Both the position numbers and the translations under genes were made by a program. A model generated the notes under the pieces. That model was not told the DNA's origin. It saw only the letters and a program-made list of their open reading frames with translations, and ran no database searches. This document shows, piece after piece, positions 17,246-37,841 of a DNA stretch of 43,700 bases. The stretch is from IMG/VR virus record IMGVR_UViG_3300033153_004867, positions 1-43,700 of that record, one strand, 5' to 3'. How positions within the stretch are numbered: the stretch's first letter is position 1; the number at the start of each line of letters is the position of its first letter. Origin of the DNA: a virus.

Positions 17246-17950
17246 ATGAATTTAAAAAAATATATATATTCAAAACAAGATATGCTTTTTGGACATTCAG
17301 AAGTAATCGGTTTTGGAACTGATGAATTTTATGTCAAAGAAATTGATAGAAAGGTAGCAAATAAAATGGTAATTGAAAATCATTATTCAAAGAAATTTTA
17401 TAGCGCAACCTATATTCATCTTGGTGTATATATAAAAGATGAATTGATTGGAGTATTGCAATATGGTTATGCCATGAATCCTGCAAGCTGTGGAAGCGTT
17501 GTAAAAGGCACGGAGATGAATCAATATTTAGAATTAAATAGAATGTGGCTTGACAATAAAGCCGAAAGAAATAGCGAAAGCAAAGCTATTGGATATTCAA
17601 TTAAATATATAAAAAATAAATTTCCAAAGATAAAATGGATTCAATCATTTGCAGATGAAAGATGTGGCTGCTTTGGAATAGTTTATCAGGCTTGTAGTTT
17701 TAGTTATTACGGAGAACATAAAAGCGATTTTTGGGAGCTTGGAAATGTTGTGTATCACAATATACAAATGACCGTTAGTAAGGATTCTAAAAGATATGGG
17801 GGGGAAGCTAAACACTTGCAAGAGAACAAAGACAAGGCAAAGAGAATGAATTTAAGACAATTTAGATATATAAAATTTATTGATAGTAAATGGGAAAAGA
17901 GATGTTTATTAAAAAAACAAACATATCTAAAATATTACAATAACGATTAA
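17246..17950 (+). CDS. Mom-like DNA adenine modification enzyme
   Basis: 234 aa. Matches the Mu Mom group (GNAT-like fold): NHYSKKF, HLGVYIKDELIGVLQYG, ELNRMWL, then IKWIQSFADERCGCFGIVYQACSF. Mu Mom converts adenine in DNA to a carbamoylmethyl form and blocks many restriction enzymes. Length is close to that of Mu Mom. First gene of the plus-strand operon, behind the pseudoknot leader; Mu mom is also tightly controlled because the enzyme is toxic. No Com-like regulator beside it. Confidence 0.8.
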   Translation: MNLKKYIYSKQDMLFGHSEVIGFGTDEFYVKEIDRKVANKMVIENHYSKKFYSATYIHLGVYIKDELIGVLQYGYAMNPASCGSVVKGTEMNQYLELNRMWLDNKAERNSESKAIGYSIKYIKNKFPKIKWIQSFADERCGCFGIVYQACSFSYYGEHKSDFWELGNVVYHNIQMTVSKDSKRYGGEAKHLQENKDKAKRMNLRQFRYIKFIDSKWEKRCLLKKQTYLKYYNND

Positions 17951-19499: not shown

Positions 19500-20396
19500 A
19501 TGTTTAAAAGCTATCAAGAATATCGCAACACTTGGGATAACGCCTCGACCACAAAACCTATAGTGCCTCTTAATATAGACATAGAGCTTTCAACAACCTG
19601 TAACCTAAAGTGTCCATTTTGTTTCCTTCAAAAAAAAGATTATAAAGTAAAAAATAAATTCATGAATTTGTCTTTGGCAAAGGAAATAATTGATACTACT
19701 TCAATTTATGGAGTTCCGGCGATTAAGTTTAATTGGCGCGGTGAATCAACTATGCATCCTCATTTTTCTACTATCCTTGAATATGCGAAAAGTAAAAATA
19801 CATTCTTTGATTTACTCGTTAATACAAATGGTAATTATAACGAGAAAGCAGTAGATGGATTAATGGCGGCGACAAAAGTCATATTCTCATTAGATAGCAC
19901 GAAACCAAATATATATGCGAAGATGAGAAAGGGTGGTGATTTACTAAAGGTATTAAGTAATATAAACCAATTAATTAAATTAGGCCATAAAGGCATTGTA
20001 GTTCGCAGAGTAATTACCGAAGATAATAAGCACGAAGATTTTAAGACTAATGTTAAAAATATATTCGGTGATGTTTCTGTAAGTGAACATTATGTTTTTG
20101 AAAGAGGTAAGGAATTTAAATTGCAGAATATAAAAAGAGCATATTGTGGATACCCATCTGTGCGATTAGTGGTTTCGGTTTCAGGCGACATTATGCCCTG
20201 TTGCGTGGACTACCACGAGGATATGATATTAGGAAACATTTATAAAGACAAGTTAATTGATATATGGAATGGCGATAAATTAAATAATTTGGTAAGCGAA
20301 TTAAAGCAAAACATCTTCAAGTCTAAGCAGTGTGAAAATTGCACAAGTTGGCTTTCTTATTCTGATAAAATTAAGAGGGAGGCAGTTAAATTATGA
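19500..20396 (+). CDS. Radical SAM/SPASM-type protein
   Basis: 298 aa. The 4Fe-4S site that cleaves SAM is CNLKCPFC (Cys34, Cys38, Cys41), followed by the GxE-like FNWRGEST and a TIM-barrel pattern (LLVNTNGNY, VIFSLDS). The C-terminal part has YCGYPS, a VSGDIMPCC block and CENC, typical of a SPASM/twitch auxiliary cluster. MoaA/SPASM relatives modify peptides or small molecules and also appear in sugar and LPS loci. It opens the accessory block and is coupled to the next gene (ATGA). Substrate unknown; QueE is unlikely. Confidence 0.83.
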   Translation: MFKSYQEYRNTWDNASTTKPIVPLNIDIELSTTCNLKCPFCFLQKKDYKVKNKFMNLSLAKEIIDTTSIYGVPAIKFNWRGESTMHPHFSTILEYAKSKNTFFDLLVNTNGNYNEKAVDGLMAATKVIFSLDSTKPNIYAKMRKGGDLLKVLSNINQLIKLGHKGIVVRRVITEDNKHEDFKTNVKNIFGDVSVSEHYVFERGKEFKLQNIKRAYCGYPSVRLVVSVSGDIMPCCVDYHEDMILGNIYKDKLIDIWNGDKLNNLVSELKQNIFKSKQCENCTSWLSYSDKIKREAVKL

Positions 20397-20581
20397 CTTG
20401 TTTAAACTGTAAAAATCTACAATTTGAGAAATCTAAAATATTACAAGATTGCTTTCATAGTAATATGGAATTATATTGCAAGAAACATAGGTGGTCGTTT
20501 GATTGTGAAATGAATAGTAAAAAAGAATTAATAGCAATGCTAGAAACTGCCAATAATTGTAAGGAGCTTATAAATGAGTGA
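20393..20581 (+). CDS. Small Cys-rich protein
   Basis: 62 aa with six Cys (3, 6, 20, 29, 38, 56): CLNCKNL then spaced single Cys, consistent with a small zinc-binding protein. ATGA overlap with the radical SAM gene. A peptide substrate of that enzyme is a conceivable alternative, because the genes are coupled, but there is no leader-core pattern. Confidence 0.58.
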   Translation: MTCLNCKNLQFEKSKILQDCFHSNMELYCKKHRWSFDCEMNSKKELIAMLETANNCKELINE

Positions 20582-21899
20582 TACTGTTATTATTATTTCC
20601 GCTAGAGTAAAATCTTCTAGGATTCCAAATAAAGTTCTTAAAAAAATAAACGGAGTTGAAATTATAGAGCATATTTTAAAAAGAGTTACAAGATTAGGCA
20701 TACCTACAATATTGGCAATACCTCATGGAGAAAAAAATCACTATAGCAATCTTTCGCATTATCAATTTAGAATATTTGAAGGCGATTCCCTTTCTCCACT
20801 TCATAGAATTTGCGACTATTTGAAACAAAATCCTAAAGTTAAATATGTGGTTAGGGTTACTTGTGATGACCCGATAATTGACGGTCAAACAGTATCGGAA
20901 TTATTGGCAGAAGTTAAGAAACAAGATGCAGGGCATGGTTGTACTCCTGATATAATCGGGGGTGCAGGTATAGAGGTAATGCACCGGGATAATTTAATAG
21001 AAGCGTCAAAGCGAAAAGAGAATACAGAGTTTATAAGCTATTTTGTTAAGGGTAGCAATATGCCTAAGCCGGGAACAATTAGAATGAACCCTAGACATCA
21101 AATTAATAGACCTTATAGATTGTGTGTTGACTACCCAGAAGATGCGAATTTACTTGAAATAGTATTAAGGGCTTTGGGGAATGATTGCTCGGTAGATGAA
21201 ATATGCAAATACTTAGATTTAAACCAACATTTATTGAAGATTAATAAATTGCCACTATTGACAATTTACACATGCGTTCATAACGCTGAAAAATACATTT
21301 ATACAACAATGCAAAGCGTTTTAAATACGGATATAGATATGGAGTATATAATTGTTGATGATAAATCTAGTGATAATTCGATACAGGAGATGACGAAGTT
21401 TTGCCATGATAAGCGAGTTAATTTTATCTTTAATGATAAAAACTTGGGTTTGGCTTCGTCATCAAATCGAGCTATCGATAAAGCTAAGGGCAAATATATA
21501 ATGCGTGTAGACGCAGACGATTTATTGATGACTAAAAATTTTGACACAGGATTTTACGAGGCAATAAATATGCTTAACGGGAAAGCTGAAATCGTTTACC
21601 CTGCTTATTATTCTTATTTTGAAGAAACAGGGGAGTATGAGTATACAAAGCCAGAAGTCAAACATCATGCTGGCTCTGCGATAATGAAAACCAGAATTAT
21701 TAATGAGCTAAGATTTAAAGAGGGGATAAGGCATTGGGATGGACTAGAGTTGTATCATAGAATGTTAAAAGACGGGGTATCGTATTACAATAAGCCTACT
21801 TGGTTTTATCGGGTTAGGAAAGATAGCATGAGTCATAGCGATTTAACTAAAAGGGCGAGCATGAAATTGACTATAGATGAAAGGGGGATGATTAAATGA
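20574..21899 (+). CDS. Cytidylyltransferase-glycosyltransferase (GT2) fusion
   Basis: 441 aa, two domains. Residues 1-226 match SpsF/NeuA-type cytidylyltransferases: ISARVKSSRIPNKVLKKI (nucleotide loop, 8-25), VRVTCDDPIIDG (93-104, metal Asp) and RLCVDYPED. Residues 228-441 are a GT2 glycosyltransferase: LLTIYTCVHNAEKYI, EYIIVDDKSSDNS (261-263 VDD), NLGLASSSNRAI and the metal-binding VDADD (312-316), with HWDGLELYHRM near the end. The fusion would activate a sugar with CTP and pass it on. Junction about 226-230 is clean. Overlaps the previous gene by 8 bases. Confidence 0.85.
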   Translation: MSDTVIIISARVKSSRIPNKVLKKINGVEIIEHILKRVTRLGIPTILAIPHGEKNHYSNLSHYQFRIFEGDSLSPLHRICDYLKQNPKVKYVVRVTCDDPIIDGQTVSELLAEVKKQDAGHGCTPDIIGGAGIEVMHRDNLIEASKRKENTEFISYFVKGSNMPKPGTIRMNPRHQINRPYRLCVDYPEDANLLEIVLRALGNDCSVDEICKYLDLNQHLLKINKLPLLTIYTCVHNAEKYIYTTMQSVLNTDIDMEYIIVDDKSSDNSIQEMTKFCHDKRVNFIFNDKNLGLASSSNRAIDKAKGKYIMRVDADDLLMTKNFDTGFYEAINMLNGKAEIVYPAYYSYFEETGEYEYTKPEVKHHAGSAIMKTRIINELRFKEGIRHWDGLELYHRMLKDGVSYYNKPTWFYRVRKDSMSHSDLTKRASMKLTIDERGMIK

Positions 21900-22210
21900 T
21901 TATGTCATTAAGTATAGCAGTTTTTTGTTTCGTTATAGTATCATTTCTGGCTTCTATAAAAGCAGAAAGAAATAAAGAGCAGATAGAAGAACTTAAAAAG
22001 ATAGTTGGGAAAATAGATGATGAATTATATCCCATTGAAATGAAATCAAATGGACCTGGAATATCTTTGGTTACTGCGAATAAAATAAAAGAATTGATTG
22101 AAGAAATAGATAGACTTAAATTAGTTATAAAAGAACTTGGCTACGAGTGGAAGGAAAAAGAAACAAAGACTAAAACAAAAGAAGCACATTGGGAAAATAT
22201 TAAAAAATGA
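21896..22210 (+). CDS. Membrane-anchored coiled-coil protein
   Basis: 104 aa. Residues 1-21 form a transmembrane helix (LSIAVFCFVIVSFLASI), followed by a charged helical cytoplasmic region ending in KETKTKTKEAHWENIKK. ATGA overlap with the fusion gene. Function unknown; it could tether the pathway at the membrane. Confidence 0.6.
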   Translation: MIMSLSIAVFCFVIVSFLASIKAERNKEQIEELKKIVGKIDDELYPIEMKSNGPGISLVTANKIKELIEEIDRLKLVIKELGYEWKEKETKTKTKEAHWENIKK

Positions 22211-22545
22211 TAACCCAAAGCGAACTCATAACCCTATCTGGTCTAACACATAAAGAGATTAATTTATTGTGTTGTGGTAGAAAGTGGGAGAGGGTTTTTG
22301 CTTGGTTGTGTGCTATGAAAAAGGCCCTAGCTGAATACTCAAAGAAAAAGAAATTTGATGATGTTCAATTAAATATAGTGGGTCATATAGCTTGGATAGA
22401 AACTTATTTATGGAACGCTTATTATTTATATCAACTCCCCGGCTTCTTGAGAAATAATGCTGATTATGTTTTTAAGCCTAAACAGTATGCGAAAATGAAA
22501 ATAAGAAAGGAATTTGATACTGTAATGCGCCGAGGCTATCATTGA
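22207..22545 (+). CDS. Hypothetical protein
   Basis: 112 aa. Helical, with TLSGLTHKEINLLCCGRKWERVFAWLC and an aromatic segment (WIETYLWNAYYLYQLPGF). ATGA overlap with the upstream gene. No family recognised. Confidence 0.6.
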   Translation: MITQSELITLSGLTHKEINLLCCGRKWERVFAWLCAMKKALAEYSKKKKFDDVQLNIVGHIAWIETYLWNAYYLYQLPGFLRNNADYVFKPKQYAKMKIRKEFDTVMRRGYH

Positions 22546-22564
22546 TGACTATTGAAGGTAAAAA

Positions 22565-22786
22565 ATGAAAATATATTGTAATAATTGTAAATGGTTTGAT
22601 TTTATGTACAATTATGCCACTAATGAATATGATGAGTGTTTAAATAATAATAATATGATAAAACATATAGAAAAAGAAAATCACGAACATCCTGAATATA
22701 CTTGGAAAAAGAAAGGGAAACCTTATATATTAAATAAAAACAATGTTTGTAAGAATAAAAAAAAAAAAAGATGGTGGAATTTTTAA
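22565..22786 (+). CDS. Small Cys/Lys-rich protein
   Basis: 73 aa. N-terminus YCNNCKWF, later single Cys (DECLNN, NVCKNK): a small zinc-binding type. It ends in a run of Lys codons read from a 13-base A tract (22757-22769) and WWNF. The tract is a possible slippage site next to the HTH gene. Function unknown. Confidence 0.55.
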   Translation: MKIYCNNCKWFDFMYNYATNEYDECLNNNNMIKHIEKENHEHPEYTWKKKGKPYILNKNNVCKNKKKKRWWNF

Positions 22787-23025
22787 TGAAAATATATCTC
22801 AACGGAAGAGAGATTAGATTTGTAATGATGATAAGAAATATGTCGCAGAATAAAATGGCGACAAAAATAGGAATAACAAGACCTCATTTTAATAAATTAT
22901 TAATGGGCTATGCTAATCCGACAAGCGAAACAAGAAAGAAAATAACAAATGCTTTTAAAGGCATTGCATGGGATAGATTGTACACTATAGTAGACTTAAA
23001 TCTAACAACAGGAAGTAAATTATGA
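22786..23025 (+). CDS. XRE-family helix-turn-helix protein
   Basis: 79 aa from ATG 22786 (GGTGGA 8 bases upstream); an ATG at 22771 has no such site. The HTH is MSQNKMATKIGITRPHFNKLLMGYANP (about 19-45), the Cro/CI helix-turn-helix type, followed by a short helix. A repressor or Cro-like regulator is likely; the dyads at 17069-17096 are a possible target. Odd place between sugar genes. Overlaps the next gene by ATGA. Confidence 0.72.
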   Translation: MKIYLNGREIRFVMMIRNMSQNKMATKIGITRPHFNKLLMGYANPTSETRKKITNAFKGIAWDRLYTIVDLNLTTGSKL

Positions 23026-23801
23026 ACTTATGTCCGACACCAAATTATCCATTAACACTTAAGGCGAAGAAACGAAAATTAAAGAAACCTATAATTTTAG
23101 CCGGGATGTGTTATGCTCAATCCGAATACTTAGAAAAAACTGCTAAATTCTTAAAGAAATTTGACATCAGTTATATGCGAGGAGGAGTGTTCAGAGCAGG
23201 AACATATCCACCAGTAGACGGATTCGGTTTAAGTAAAAAGACATTAGCAGATTTTTCATATCAAGCACATAAGCAAGGATTAAAGATAATCATTGAGGTA
23301 TTGGATTTAAGGGATATAGATTATATATTGCAATTCGCTGATGCCCTCCAAATAGGGGCAAGACATAGCCAAGATTACGCTTTGCTCAAGGAAGTCAAGC
23401 AGTTTAGTGGTGATGTGACTATTAAGCGTGGTATGCACCAAAACATGGATGAATTTCTAGGCTCTGTTGAGTATCTAATGGGCGGAAAGTGCAAGCCGAT
23501 AATGATAGAACGAGGAGGAGTCAGCTATCATAATCATGTTCGTTGGGATTTAAGTATCTCAATGATTCCGGCGATTAAAATAAGAACGAATATTCCTATA
23601 ATAGTAGACGCTTCACATGGCACAGGGCGCAGTGATTTGGTGTTGCCTATGACTATGGCGGGTATTGCTTCGGGAGCAGATGGGTATTTAGTCGAGTGTC
23701 ATCCTGAACCTAAAAAGTCATTAAGCGACCCATTACAAGCAATAGGTTTAAAAGAGTTCAGAATATTGTATAATAAAGTTAATAATTTAATGAGGAGATA
23801 A
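23022..23801 (+). CDS. DAHP synthase-family (type I-beta-like) aldolase
   Basis: 259 aa. Aligns with the DAHP/KDO8P synthase superfamily: AGMCYAQSE with metal-ligand Cys30, RGGVFRAGTYPP (53-64), LQIGARHSQDYALLKEV, TIKRGM (134-138), VDASHGTGR with His199, VECHPEP with Glu225 and LSD with Asp236. All metal ligands are present. These enzymes add phosphoenolpyruvate to a sugar phosphate. The usual KPRTS loop that holds the substrate is replaced by FRAGT, so the acceptor may differ from erythrose 4-phosphate. Neighbours suggest ulosonic-acid synthesis. Confidence 0.83.
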   Translation: MNLCPTPNYPLTLKAKKRKLKKPIILAGMCYAQSEYLEKTAKFLKKFDISYMRGGVFRAGTYPPVDGFGLSKKTLADFSYQAHKQGLKIIIEVLDLRDIDYILQFADALQIGARHSQDYALLKEVKQFSGDVTIKRGMHQNMDEFLGSVEYLMGGKCKPIMIERGGVSYHNHVRWDLSISMIPAIKIRTNIPIIVDASHGTGRSDLVLPMTMAGIASGADGYLVECHPEPKKSLSDPLQAIGLKEFRILYNKVNNLMRR

Positions 23802-23803
23802 TA

Positions 23804-25219
23804 ATGACCGAAACTAAAGAAGAAACCAAAGAAATAAAAGAAACTATGCATTGCTCAATATGCGATACAACGGATTTCCACCACACAGGAAAGCTACACA
23901 AAGAGAGTGAGATATTACTTTGTAAGAACTGTGGCGCAGTATGGCATAATGTTGATTACTCCAAGGAAGAAACGATAAAAGAGTATTACAGGAATAATTA
24001 TCGCTCAAATATATCTCATAGAAACCTACAAACTACAAATAATAAACTCCAATGGATTAAAGAGTTTTTAATGGATTTCCTGAAAGACAAGAAAGGGCTT
24101 ATTATAGGAGATGTCGGTTGTGCGACCGGATATATACCCAGTTTCTTTCGTAAGATAGGTCATAAGTCTACCGGGTGTGAATTAACTCCCTCATTTCGTA
24201 GATTCTCTGAACATTTTTACGGGATACCACTTACAGAAGAATTAATCAATAAATATGACAATGTGAAAGGCGAAGATGGGAAAATAACTAAGGTCAACAA
24301 ACCTTACTTTGATTTAATTATCTACAATCATGTCCTAGAACATATAATGAACCCCGATAAAGAGTTAAAGAAAGCTATTGATTTAATCAAAGATAGCGGA
24401 CACTTACATATATCAGTGCCACAATTCTTAAATGATATTGATGAGCCAAGTGGTGTTGCCATTCGCTCATTTGAGACATTCTTTCATAAAGACCATATTA
24501 ACTTATTCACTAAACAAGCGATACAGAATTTATTTAGAAAGAATGGGCTTAAAATAGTTAAAGAGAATTACAGTAATTACGGTCAAACTTATTTACTCCA
24601 AAAAACAGGCGAAACTCAAGAGATAATCAAAGAGGATTGGAAAAAGAATCTCACTATAATTGAGAATCACAAAGAGGCTATAGTACACTTCTCTAAGGGC
24701 GACTTTGAAAAGGCAATAGAAACTAATCCTAGATTTCCCGATGCGTGGACTGGCTTAATAATGGGAACGAAAGGAAAGGATGAATCCGAACAACAAGACC
24801 TATGGGATAAGATGAAAACCGAACATCCGGTAATATTTAATAATAAAAAATGCAAACTTGTTTATGCGATATGGTTATTCCAAAGAGGATTACGTGAGCA
24901 AGCTGACAAAGCCTTTAATGAGGCTCTTTCGGTTAGATTATGTTCAGAAACATTATTCCATAAAGCGCAGAATCTATACTTAATGGGCAAGAAGAAACAA
25001 AGTATAGGATTATTTCACATGGCGGCAAGTATCAATCCTGATAAGTGGTCTTTGTGTATGGATTGGGCTTGCAAAGCGAGTAGTGAGTGTGAGTCTTGGG
25101 ATGAAGTGGCTAAGAAACAAGCCTTAGAGCAGGTATGGCAAAAGAATAAACATCTTATGAAAGACAATACTCCGAATGACCCTGTAATGGAAGAAAAAAA
25201 AGAAGTGGCGAAAACTTAA
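23804..25219 (+). CDS. Zinc-ribbon SAM methyltransferase with TPR-like tail
   Basis: 471 aa. Zinc ribbon CSIC...CKNC (Cys17, 20, 40, 43); class I methyltransferase with GDVGCATGY (102-110), DLIIYNHVLEHI and HLHISVPQF; then DHINLFTKQAIQNLFRKNG. Ribbon plus methyltransferase is the layout of sugar and LPS-locus methyltransferases. Residues 290-440 are helical with TPR-like repeats (KGDFEKAIETNPRFPDAW, ADKAFNEAL, AASINPDKW). Last gene of the accessory block. Substrate could be the activated sugar or a glycosylated target. Confidence 0.78.
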   Translation: MTETKEETKEIKETMHCSICDTTDFHHTGKLHKESEILLCKNCGAVWHNVDYSKEETIKEYYRNNYRSNISHRNLQTTNNKLQWIKEFLMDFLKDKKGLIIGDVGCATGYIPSFFRKIGHKSTGCELTPSFRRFSEHFYGIPLTEELINKYDNVKGEDGKITKVNKPYFDLIIYNHVLEHIMNPDKELKKAIDLIKDSGHLHISVPQFLNDIDEPSGVAIRSFETFFHKDHINLFTKQAIQNLFRKNGLKIVKENYSNYGQTYLLQKTGETQEIIKEDWKKNLTIIENHKEAIVHFSKGDFEKAIETNPRFPDAWTGLIMGTKGKDESEQQDLWDKMKTEHPVIFNNKKCKLVYAIWLFQRGLREQADKAFNEALSVRLCSETLFHKAQNLYLMGKKKQSIGLFHMAASINPDKWSLCMDWACKASSECESWDEVAKKQALEQVWQKNKHLMKDNTPNDPVMEEKKEVAKT

Positions 25220-35883: not shown

Positions 35884-36852
35884 ATGAAGAAATTGAATTA
35901 TTCAGATGTCAAAAAGCAAAGCGAGGCTGTCTATAAGCAGTTTGGCGAATCTATGTGGAAACCTTACGCTAATGAGAATCACAGGCTTAAAAGATGTGAT
36001 TGTAAAGAGTTTGAGAATAGCGGATTAGGCAAGACACTAGTATTAGTCGCTATGGGAGCGAGTCTTGAGAACGATATAGAAGAACTTAAAAAAAATAGGG
36101 AGAAATACGATATTTTAACTTGTGACAAAGGATTCGGTGTTTTATTGGAACATGGAATAAAGGCGGATTTTGTTAATATAGCCGATTGCCAGATACCTTA
36201 TAAATGGCTTGAGAAATATATAGACGAAACCGAAGATGTCGCCTTAATTTCTACTATATATGCTAATCCCGACTGGACATCTCGCTGGAAAGGCAAAAGA
36301 TATTTCTACATGAACAAAGATGCTATTAAAAGCGAGAAGCATTTTAGCCACTTATTCCCAAATGCAAGAACAATCCCTGCTTCCAGTAATGTCGGTAATG
36401 CGATGTTAGTTTTTATGACTGGTTGTGATAACGGTCAAGCAAATTGGGCTGGGTATGATAGATATGTACTTTTAGGATATGATTTTTGTTGGTTGCCGGA
36501 AGGAAATTATTACGCTTTTAATAACCCGAAACCCAAAAGGTCATATATGCACCATTTAACTAGGATTTTATCAGACGGAACAGTAATTTTCAGCTCGCAA
36601 AACCTTAATTTCTCAGCTGATTGGTTGAGAATGTATATCAAGGGATATAAACTACCTGTTATAGATTGTTCGGGTGGGATGTTAGAGATTAACCAGAAAG
36701 TTAAATTTAGCGAAGTAGTTAGTAAAATTAATTCAAATTATAAGGCGATTGAACTTGTTAGAAATAAATATGACAAATTAAAATTGTCTTTTATAAATCA
36801 TAATAAATATATGCAAGACTTTAATAAGTCAAGGGAGGCGTTATGGCAATAG
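35884..36852 (+). CDS. DUF115/Maf-like glycosyltransferase-type protein
   Basis: 322 aa. LVLVAMGASLENDIEEL (53-67), DILTCDKGFGVLLEHGIKADFVNIADCQ (76-103), ASSNVGNAM and YVLLGYDFCW follow the DUF115/MptE-like pattern shared by motility-associated (Maf) glycosyltransferases, which attach CMP-pseudaminic or CMP-legionaminic acid to flagellin. It lies between the tail terminator and tail tube genes and overlaps the tube gene by 10 bases, so it is made together with the tube. A virion-protein target is the natural guess. The broader DUF115 family also has other enzymes. Confidence 0.75.
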   Translation: MKKLNYSDVKKQSEAVYKQFGESMWKPYANENHRLKRCDCKEFENSGLGKTLVLVAMGASLENDIEELKKNREKYDILTCDKGFGVLLEHGIKADFVNIADCQIPYKWLEKYIDETEDVALISTIYANPDWTSRWKGKRYFYMNKDAIKSEKHFSHLFPNARTIPASSNVGNAMLVFMTGCDNGQANWAGYDRYVLLGYDFCWLPEGNYYAFNNPKPKRSYMHHLTRILSDGTVIFSSQNLNFSADWLRMYIKGYKLPVIDCSGGMLEINQKVKFSEVVSKINSNYKAIELVRNKYDKLKLSFINHNKYMQDFNKSREALWQ

Positions 36853-37841
36853 GTGATGGAGCAAAAGCGACAGTAAGAAGTTATGTGGCAATGGATAGGG
36901 AAACGGCGTACGGAACATATACAACGAATACCACAGCTCTATTGGCTGTTGAAGCGATGTCTTGTTCTTTTAAAACAATTAGGACTAAGCAAAAGATAAA
37001 TGCGCTAAGCACTAATAGAGGTTTTAATCGCAGAGTATTACTCAATAAGGAAGTATCTGGAACATTAGAAGTCAATGGACATCCTAACGAAAGTGTTTGG
37101 ATTCTCCAATCTGCTCTTGGTGGGGCGATGTCTACTACGGCATTAAGCACAGGTGCGTATAGTCATGTTCTCCATGCAGGGAACTTTGACGCTTCTGCTC
37201 CTTCGGTGTGTTTCAATGTCCGGAAAGGCGATGAGCATGAATGGCATTATACTGGTGGCAGGGTTAATTCCTTGAAGATGTCGGCAGAGGTAGGGGATGT
37301 TCTTAAAATCTCGGCTGATTATATCTTTCAAGATTCAACTCAATTAAGCGATGACCAAAGTGCTACTCTTACTTTATCCTCTTATATTCCGTTCACATTT
37401 GAGAATGGCTCATTCGCCTATTCAGGTGTTAGCGAGAAAATAACTGGATTTGAATTGACGATTAACAATAACCTCAAATCTGATAAAGACGCTAGAGCAT
37501 TAGGGCAGAATACTATTGTTGCCTTACCCTCAACTCGTAGAGATATTGAGTTTAAGATTACTCAAAGATTCGATACTACTACTACTTATGATAGATTCGT
37601 TGCGGGTGCTAATGCGGCGGTTCAATTAGTGTTTTCGGCACAATCTCTTACAAGCGATGAAAATAACAAACTTACGATTGACTTGCCGAAAGTGTTTTAT
37701 AACTCGCCTGATGTGGAATTATCGTCAGCGGATGATATTTTAATAAGCGACATTGACTTCGATGTAGTTGTTGATACCCCTCATACATCGACGGGCTATG
37801 ATGTTCAAATGACAATGATTAACGATGTGTCAGCTTATTAA
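36843..37841 (+). CDS. Tail tube (major tail) protein
   Basis: 332 aa. Starts MAIGDGAKATVRSYVAMDRETAYGTY and continues with VSGTLEVNGHP, GGAMSTTALSTGAYSH, FNVRKGDEHEWHYTGGRVNSLK, the layout of large siphovirus tail-tube proteins (Phage_TTP-like). Long Ser/Thr-rich strands give many possible O-glycosylation residues. Position before the frameshift chaperone fits. Confidence 0.82.
   Translation: MAIGDGAKATVRSYVAMDRETAYGTYTTNTTALLAVEAMSCSFKTIRTKQKINALSTNRGFNRRVLLNKEVSGTLEVNGHPNESVWILQSALGGAMSTTALSTGAYSHVLHAGNFDASAPSVCFNVRKGDEHEWHYTGGRVNSLKMSAEVGDVLKISADYIFQDSTQLSDDQSATLTLSSYIPFTFENGSFAYSGVSEKITGFELTINNNLKSDKDARALGQNTIVALPSTRRDIEFKITQRFDTTTTYDRFVAGANAAVQLVFSAQSLTSDENNKLTIDLPKVFYNSPDVELSSADDILISDIDFDVVVDTPHTSTGYDVQMTMINDVSAY

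Follow-up and report, generated by a model that had tools for sequence, protein, structure and literature searches.

A modular core gene set of uncultivated tailed phages: a probable variant of known protein-glycosylation systems

Maf enzymes place nonulosonic acids activated with cytidine monophosphate (CMP) on serine and threonine (Ser/Thr) residues of flagellin, and they also accept CMP-activated 3-deoxy-D-manno-oct-2-ulosonic acid (KDO) (PMC11339370). The order of action in Aeromonas caviae is NeuB, then NeuA, then Maf1 (PMC3426422). For phages, the passage of PMC12619734 that cites Freeman 2023 describes glycans on the capsid and tail-tube subunits of mycobacteriophages. Here we describe a cassette at 19500-25219 and a DUF115 gene at 35884-36852 in a 43.7-kb IMG/VR virus record (IMGVR_UViG_3300033153_004867, positions 1 to 43,700; this whole stretch is referred to as the window). 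Together, these genes probably constitute a phage-encoded protein-glycosylation system that puts a nonulosonate-like sugar onto a virion protein. The gene set is a modular core of uncultivated phages and is best read as a variant of the known protein-glycosylation systems. No description of this cassette was found in the open-access literature.

Family scans detected terminase, portal, protease, capsid, tail tube, tape measure, and tail genes in the window, identifying it as a tailed phage. An initial annotation, made from the letters of the sequence, had assigned five enzymes to the set and had proposed that they may make and transfer a CMP-activated sugar. These assignments are borne out by Pfam families and invariant residues, the active sites are intact in the window and its relatives, and all the genes so assigned lie on the + strand at the coordinates that annotation gave. 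The Pfam calls listed here are above gathering cut-offs unless described as sub-threshold.

19500..20396, +: radical S-adenosylmethionine (SAM)/SPASM enzyme, 298 amino acids (aa) (Pfam PF04055 and PF13186)
20574..21899, +: SpsF-type cytidylyltransferase (residues ~1-215) fused to a family 2 glycosyltransferase (GT2; ~225-440) (PF02348, 6.1e-14; PF00535, 3.2e-24)
21896..22210, +: small open reading frame (ORF), 104 aa, with no recognized counterpart in relatives (only a weak match to phrog_6664, 8e-4)
22207..22545, +: small, all-helical, conserved protein, 112 aa (alignment and AlphaFold2 (AF2) model)
22771..23025, +: regulator-like protein of the helix-turn-helix (HTH) family HTH_3 (PF01381, 1.3e-5)
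23022..23801, +: phosphoenolpyruvate (PEP)-condensing synthase of the 3-deoxy-D-arabino-heptulosonate 7-phosphate (DAHP)/KDO 8-phosphate (KDO8P) synthase superfamily, with RAGT replacing KPRTS (PF00793, DAHP_synth_1, 1.7e-34)
23804..25219, +: class I methyltransferase, 471 aa, with an N-terminal CxxC...CxxC zinc ribbon and a C-terminal region like tetratricopeptide repeats (TPR) (PF13489, Methyltransf_23, 1.2e-18; sub-threshold TPR)
35884..36852, +: DUF115/MptE-like protein, a predicted Maf-like glycosyltransferase, 322 aa (PF01973, 3.9e-20)
36843..37841, +: tail tube protein (PF18906, 5.9e-28)

The set shares a PEP-condensing synthase, a cytidylyltransferase, a Maf-fold transferase, and a three-step logic with Maf-dependent flagellin glycosylation, as in Aeromonas caviae (Flm/NeuB/NeuA/Maf1), Campylobacter, and Clostridium (PMC3426422, PMC11339370). 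It differs from those systems in having no PseB/C/H/G-type precursor genes, in the fusion of an SpsF-type activator to a GT2, in its short, single-domain Maf-like protein, in the addition of a radical SAM enzyme and a methyltransferase, and in its partner gene, which is a tail tube gene rather than flagellin. The likeness to the mycobacteriophage system would lie in phage-encoded glycosyltransferases that modify capsid and tail-tube subunits; here the link to the tail tube is a genomic one. In the same passage of PMC12619734 no phage ulosonic-acid synthesis or CMP activation is reported, whereas here the phage appears to make the donor.

The assignment of DUF115 as a Maf-like glycosyltransferase is a prediction from its AF2 model (predicted local distance difference test, pLDDT, 89.8). 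This model matched the Magnetospirillum Maf structure 5MU5 with a Z-score of 22.4 and a root-mean-square deviation of 3.2 over 253 residues, followed by archaeal HPPK (Z 16.5) and CMP-sialyltransferases (Z ~9-11). The alignment covers only residues 231-520 of 5MU5, which was also the sole significant PDB profile match (6.5e-8 vs. 0.05).

The initial annotation called the block accessory. It is a core gene set of this phage lineage, with the same gene order in ~40 diverged uncultivated contigs (25-50% identity). A search of viral contigs with the synthase only returned 10 relatives (45-62% identity), and those long enough all show the radical SAM gene, the SpsF-GT2 fusion, a small ORF of ~120 aa, the synthase, and the methyltransferase in the same order and on the same strand. 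A profile search with the fusion identified some 36 full-length fusion loci, and a synthase profile search added further loci. In one branch the cassette comes after the tail genes; in the window's own branch it immediately precedes the genes for terminase and portal. Chance assembly in a single phage is ruled out by this conserved order.

Outside these contigs, matches were sparse. Cultured phages gave no DUF115 match, and their synthase matches were only unannotated Listeria, Staphylococcus, Enterococcus, and metagenomic records (26-46% identity). Among the matches listed for plasmids, only AroF/KdsA-like entries were present. The single match in genome contigs (L030, JASEHK010000003.1) is a phage contig in an Endomicrobiia metagenome-assembled genome, and it carries the full cassette and DUF115. 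The assembly may be a clue to the host of that phage, or the contig may reflect a binning error. Across 295 Elusimicrobiota genomes, scanned with two narrow peptide patterns that under-sample bacterial relatives of the kind described below, AroF-like genes occur in many and the SpsF-GT2 fusion in one, on that same phage contig.

DUF115 and the cassette occur together. DUF115 was detected in 9/10 and 9/10 of the records behind synthase loci, the exceptions being G010, a fragment of 15 kb, and L029, which looks like a bacterial polysaccharide locus. Among records behind fusion loci, DUF115 was missing only from short contigs of up to 27 kb. Since records selected by their synthase are a biased sample, we used the major capsid protein as a query and examined the best 80 loci, chosen without regard to the cassette, which lifts the bias for DUF115. 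The tail tube gene is present in 55 of the 80 loci, and DUF115 lies beside it in all 55, upstream and with a median gap of 10 bp. In the 25 loci without a tail tube gene, DUF115 was found in four, and most of the others end soon after the capsid gene. A few distant capsid relatives have neither gene; one of these is 34 kb long (G023), and the cassette was also not seen there. Several contigs with DUF115 have no fusion match, and those inspected (G021, G025-G029) end before the cassette region, cut into it, or reach it unclearly; no record with DUF115 was shown to be a full genome without the cassette. For DUF115 itself, an alignment scan of viral contigs yielded 114 relatives, whereas scanning them with the single sequence had yielded none. 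Ser and Thr make up 20% of the tail tube protein, which is a candidate acceptor favored by position only.

The same set is found in a second phage lineage, represented by L079. This contig and its kin differ from the window lineage in capsid family (phrog_14242 vs. phrog_1005) and portal family (phrog_156 vs. phrog_113). Their structural block holds the methyltransferase, the radical SAM/SPASM gene, separate SpsF and GT2 genes, and the synthase, with DUF115 ~4 kb downstream. As this lineage is unrelated to that of the window, descent within a single phage lineage cannot explain the linkage and was ruled out. The initial annotation had linked synthase, cytidylyltransferase, and DUF115 in one route. 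That link passed the genomic tests which the annotation had proposed: DUF115 is present in all records long enough, it neighbors the tail tube in 55/55 capsid-selected loci, and the set recurs in an unrelated lineage. The interpretation given there is supported in part, and its core is strengthened. Just upstream of DUF115 in L079 (11958-13511) is a highly repetitive, Ser/Thr-rich protein with SGTATLGN-type repeats, a possible acceptor for O-glycosylation.

The window synthase shares its fold family, metal ligands, and PEP-site residues with class I-beta DAHP synthases (AroF/PRK08673). All metal ligands reported by the initial annotation were confirmed (C30, H199, E225, D236), and the PEP-site residues R114, K135, R136, and R164 are kept. 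DAHP synthases bind erythrose 4-phosphate via KPRTS. In this form of the synthase, both sugar-phosphate arginines of AroF are gone, with KPRTS replaced by RAGT and ERG(I/V)R by ERGG/ERGS. In contrast, KP(or KH)R[TS] and ERG[IV]R are kept in 16/16 Elusimicrobiota AroF proteins readable at these positions, of 19 bacterial loci aligned. At the first position, R/S-A-G-T is found in L029 and in every viral protein of the RAGT type (YGT in the marine lineage); at the second, the RAGT type has Ser or Gly after ERG. Metal and PEP residues are kept. DAHP synthase is the best curated family for the window protein, which nevertheless misses the curated cut-offs (210.7 vs. 335 bits and 193 vs. 267.75 bits). 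The KANRSS motif of KdsA is absent, and the KdsA score is 58.9 bits against a cut-off of 242. The score against the NeuB family PF03102 is just below gathering (22.0 vs. 22.1), and the protein belongs to PF00793, unlike the NeuB sialic, pseudaminic, and legionaminic acid synthases that occupy the same slot in ~10 related cassettes. The loss of both motifs and the missed cut-offs suggest that this synthase uses a substrate other than erythrose 4-phosphate.

The enzyme in the synthase slot has been replaced repeatedly. In a tree of fusion proteins from 41 cassettes, the slot holds a RAGT-type (DAHPS-like) synthase in 20, no RAGT type in 17, and both a RAGT type and a NeuB-like synthase in two, while two contigs end before it. 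The 17 cassettes without the RAGT type have a NeuB-family synthase (10), a DAHPS/KDO8PS-family protein with GGTRPDR (5), a DAHPS-like protein with KYRS (1), or an epimerase only (1). Four of the five GGTRPDR (or close variant) cassettes also have a short-chain dehydrogenase/reductase (SDR) epimerase, and the KYRS cassette also has a protein like uridine diphosphate (UDP)-glucose dehydrogenase. The phage NeuB forms are short (~220-260 aa), and the slot homologues in L043, L044, L053, and L074 pass the PF03102 gathering score (53.7-88.3 vs. 22.1). Well-supported branches of the fusion tree force at least five changes of the NeuB state. Between L052 and L076, DNA similarity (67-75%) runs from the tail genes to the small ORF, by way of the radical SAM gene and the fusion, and resumes in the methyltransferase; the synthase region does not align.

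The initial annotation had counted loss of the synthase with the rest kept as evidence against the pathway. Such loss occurs literally, in 17 cassettes, but in 16 of these another PEP-condensing synthase occupies the slot, and the pathway idea is therefore strengthened. Among the genomic evidence, none supports the proposed chemistry more strongly than the interchange, beside a cytidylyltransferase, of families that condense PEP with an aldehyde to give a 3-deoxy-ulosonate. We tentatively extend the argument: the set could be a widespread, phage-owned machine for virion glycosylation in which the transferase, the activator, and the tailoring enzymes stay and the synthase is swapped between at least two families, changing the ulosonic acid on the particle much as bacteria change serotype. 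If so, the RAGT synthase would have a new PEP-condensing activity, on a substrate that is not erythrose 4-phosphate, and the repeated exchange would be evidence of diversifying selection on glycan identity, which might serve to evade recognition or to interact with receptors. In two cassettes, NeuB-like and RAGT synthases are adjacent (NeuB-like copies at L010:9292-9975 and L023:8794-9480). The catalytic motifs of the L023 NeuB-like copy are altered, and this copy may be decaying, as if a replacement were under way.

For the sugar, the order of steps, the acceptor, and the benefit, we favor the following scheme. The synthase would join PEP to an aldehyde sugar from the host, forming a 3-deoxy-2-ulosonic acid, a step that NeuB- or KDO8P-type synthases may serve in other phages. 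The N-terminal half of the fusion protein would convert the acid to a CMP-sugar, and the Maf-like DUF115 protein, encoded in the late structural operon, would move the sugar to Ser/Thr of a virion protein in an O-linkage. The probable acceptor is the tail tube or else a different protein of the tail or head. Extending the glycan or transferring one more sugar is the probable role of the fused GT2 domain, and tailoring of the sugar or glycan may fall to the radical SAM/SPASM enzyme and the zinc-ribbon methyltransferase.

The residues expected of these enzymes are preserved. In the cytidylyltransferase half of the fusion, R94 and D98 are invariant and the CTP_transf_3 domain keeps its nucleotide and Mg residues; its solved relatives are the cytidylyltransferase 6OEW (1.1e-22) and KdsB, and its scores are below the curated KdsB cut-offs. 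In the GT2 half, D262/D263 and D313/D315/D316 (a DxD-type acidic motif) are invariant. The radical SAM CxxxCxxC (C34, C38, C41) and the auxiliary-cluster cysteines are invariant among relatives, as are C17, C20, C40, C43, and the SAM-site glycines of the methyltransferase. By profile, the closest solved structure to the radical SAM enzyme is BtrN (4.7e-15), an aminocyclitol dehydrogenase. This likeness is compatible with sugar chemistry without proving it, and the enzyme may act in sugar modification.

Several points weigh against the proposed virion glycosylation. Sugar-precursor genes were not found in the window, so the suggestion of the initial annotation that the route could be self-contained is not supported, and the precursor must come from the host. 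DUF115 (322 aa) is without the additional N- and C-terminal domains seen in bacterial Maf proteins, which exceed 600 aa in all. It is uncertain what the fused GT2 does because, to our knowledge, no known CMP-ulosonate transferase is a GT2. In the epimerase-only cassette (L066), no synthase is visible in the slot. Finally, many contigs in the capsid scan stop short of the cassette.

If virion glycosylation is nonetheless correct, sialic-acid-like donor sugars are synthesized by these phages themselves and added to their particles by a Maf-type transferase, which in the cited literature is flagellar only. This would extend virion glycosylation by a class with phage-encoded synthesis and activation of the sugar, would explain DUF115 as a core gene beside the tail tube in a large lineage of uncultivated tailed phages, and would provide a family of PEP-condensing synthases with candidate new substrates.

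The same enzymes might instead make a CMP-sugar for a host surface glycan (O-antigen or capsule), blocking superinfection as in serotype conversion. GT2 enzymes and methyltransferases are usual in polysaccharide loci, and in one bacterial-looking locus (L029:8923-12108, IMG/VR 3300035698_026448) the radical SAM, RAGT synthase, SpsF, and GT2 genes are adjacent and unfused. Compared with the window cassette, this locus has a different gene order and sits among sugar-nucleotide epimerase-like and transferase-like genes, and DUF115 was not found in the record. The record is filed as viral; it reads like a bacterial polysaccharide locus beside iron-sulfur and transporter-like genes. We consider a host-glycan role unlikely, as family scans of the cassette found no flippase, polymerase, or polyprenyl-phosphate transferase, the fold of DUF115 is nearest to Maf, a protein modifier, its gene lies in the late structural operon beside the tail tube, and in L079 the full set lies inside the virion-gene block.

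Glycosylation or hypermodification of phage DNA, rather than protein, appears very unlikely. Glycosyltransferases glycosylate DNA in some phages, and radical SAM enzymes are found in such pathways. A Mom-like DNA modification protein is encoded in the window at 17246-17950 (phrog_1384, 8.7e-54), which suggests that this phage also modifies its own DNA. However, DUF115 resembles Maf and sialyltransferases rather than a DNA glycosyltransferase, its gene is tied to the tail tube, and CMP-ulosonic acids are not known to serve as donors in DNA modification.

It is similarly improbable that the enzymes decorate the small helical protein (22207-22545), either as the modified product or as a dedicated carrier. 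This protein, of which 30 sequences were aligned, sits immediately ahead of the synthase in nearly every relative, and most copies finish in an aromatic residue (..KSSY, ..KKSY, ..KVF). Its position is conserved, but its sequence is highly diverged, it contains only 7% Ser+Thr, and it is not at that place in the unfused lineage. Family scans gave no match, and the best fold match of its AF2 model (pLDDT 93.6) was Z 7.0, a value typical of chance for helices.

An ordinary auxiliary DAHP synthase that boosts host aromatic amino-acid synthesis, with unrelated morons as neighbors, is a scarcely credible reading of the synthase. DAHP synthase is its best curated family, and such enzymes form a recognized group in phages (phrog_5045), yet the scores fall far under the curated cut-offs, the KPRTS and ERG(I/V)R arginines kept in every readable Elusimicrobiota AroF are replaced, and NeuB takes the same slot. 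A shikimate role was ruled out by the motif, the family cut-offs, and slot swapping. That DUF115 is a pterin diphosphokinase (MptE) unconnected with the cassette, as its Pfam name (MptE-like) and second structural match (archaeal HPPK) could imply, is hardly tenable given its strict co-occurrence with the CMP-sugar cassette in two lineages, and a pterin role was ruled out by the clearly better match to Maf 5MU5 in fold ranking and by the PDB profile match.

Two proteins between the fusion and the synthase, the small helical protein and the HTH protein, were not mentioned in the initial annotation, nor was the TPR-like region of the methyltransferase. Comparable small HTH-like ORFs are found at the same place in L040, L041, and L043-L045. 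Judged by eye, two cassettes have an ORF inserted between the fusion and the small ORF: one like a nicotinamide adenine dinucleotide (NAD)-binding dehydrogenase (L040:6560-7357) and one endolysin-like (L024:9144-9632).

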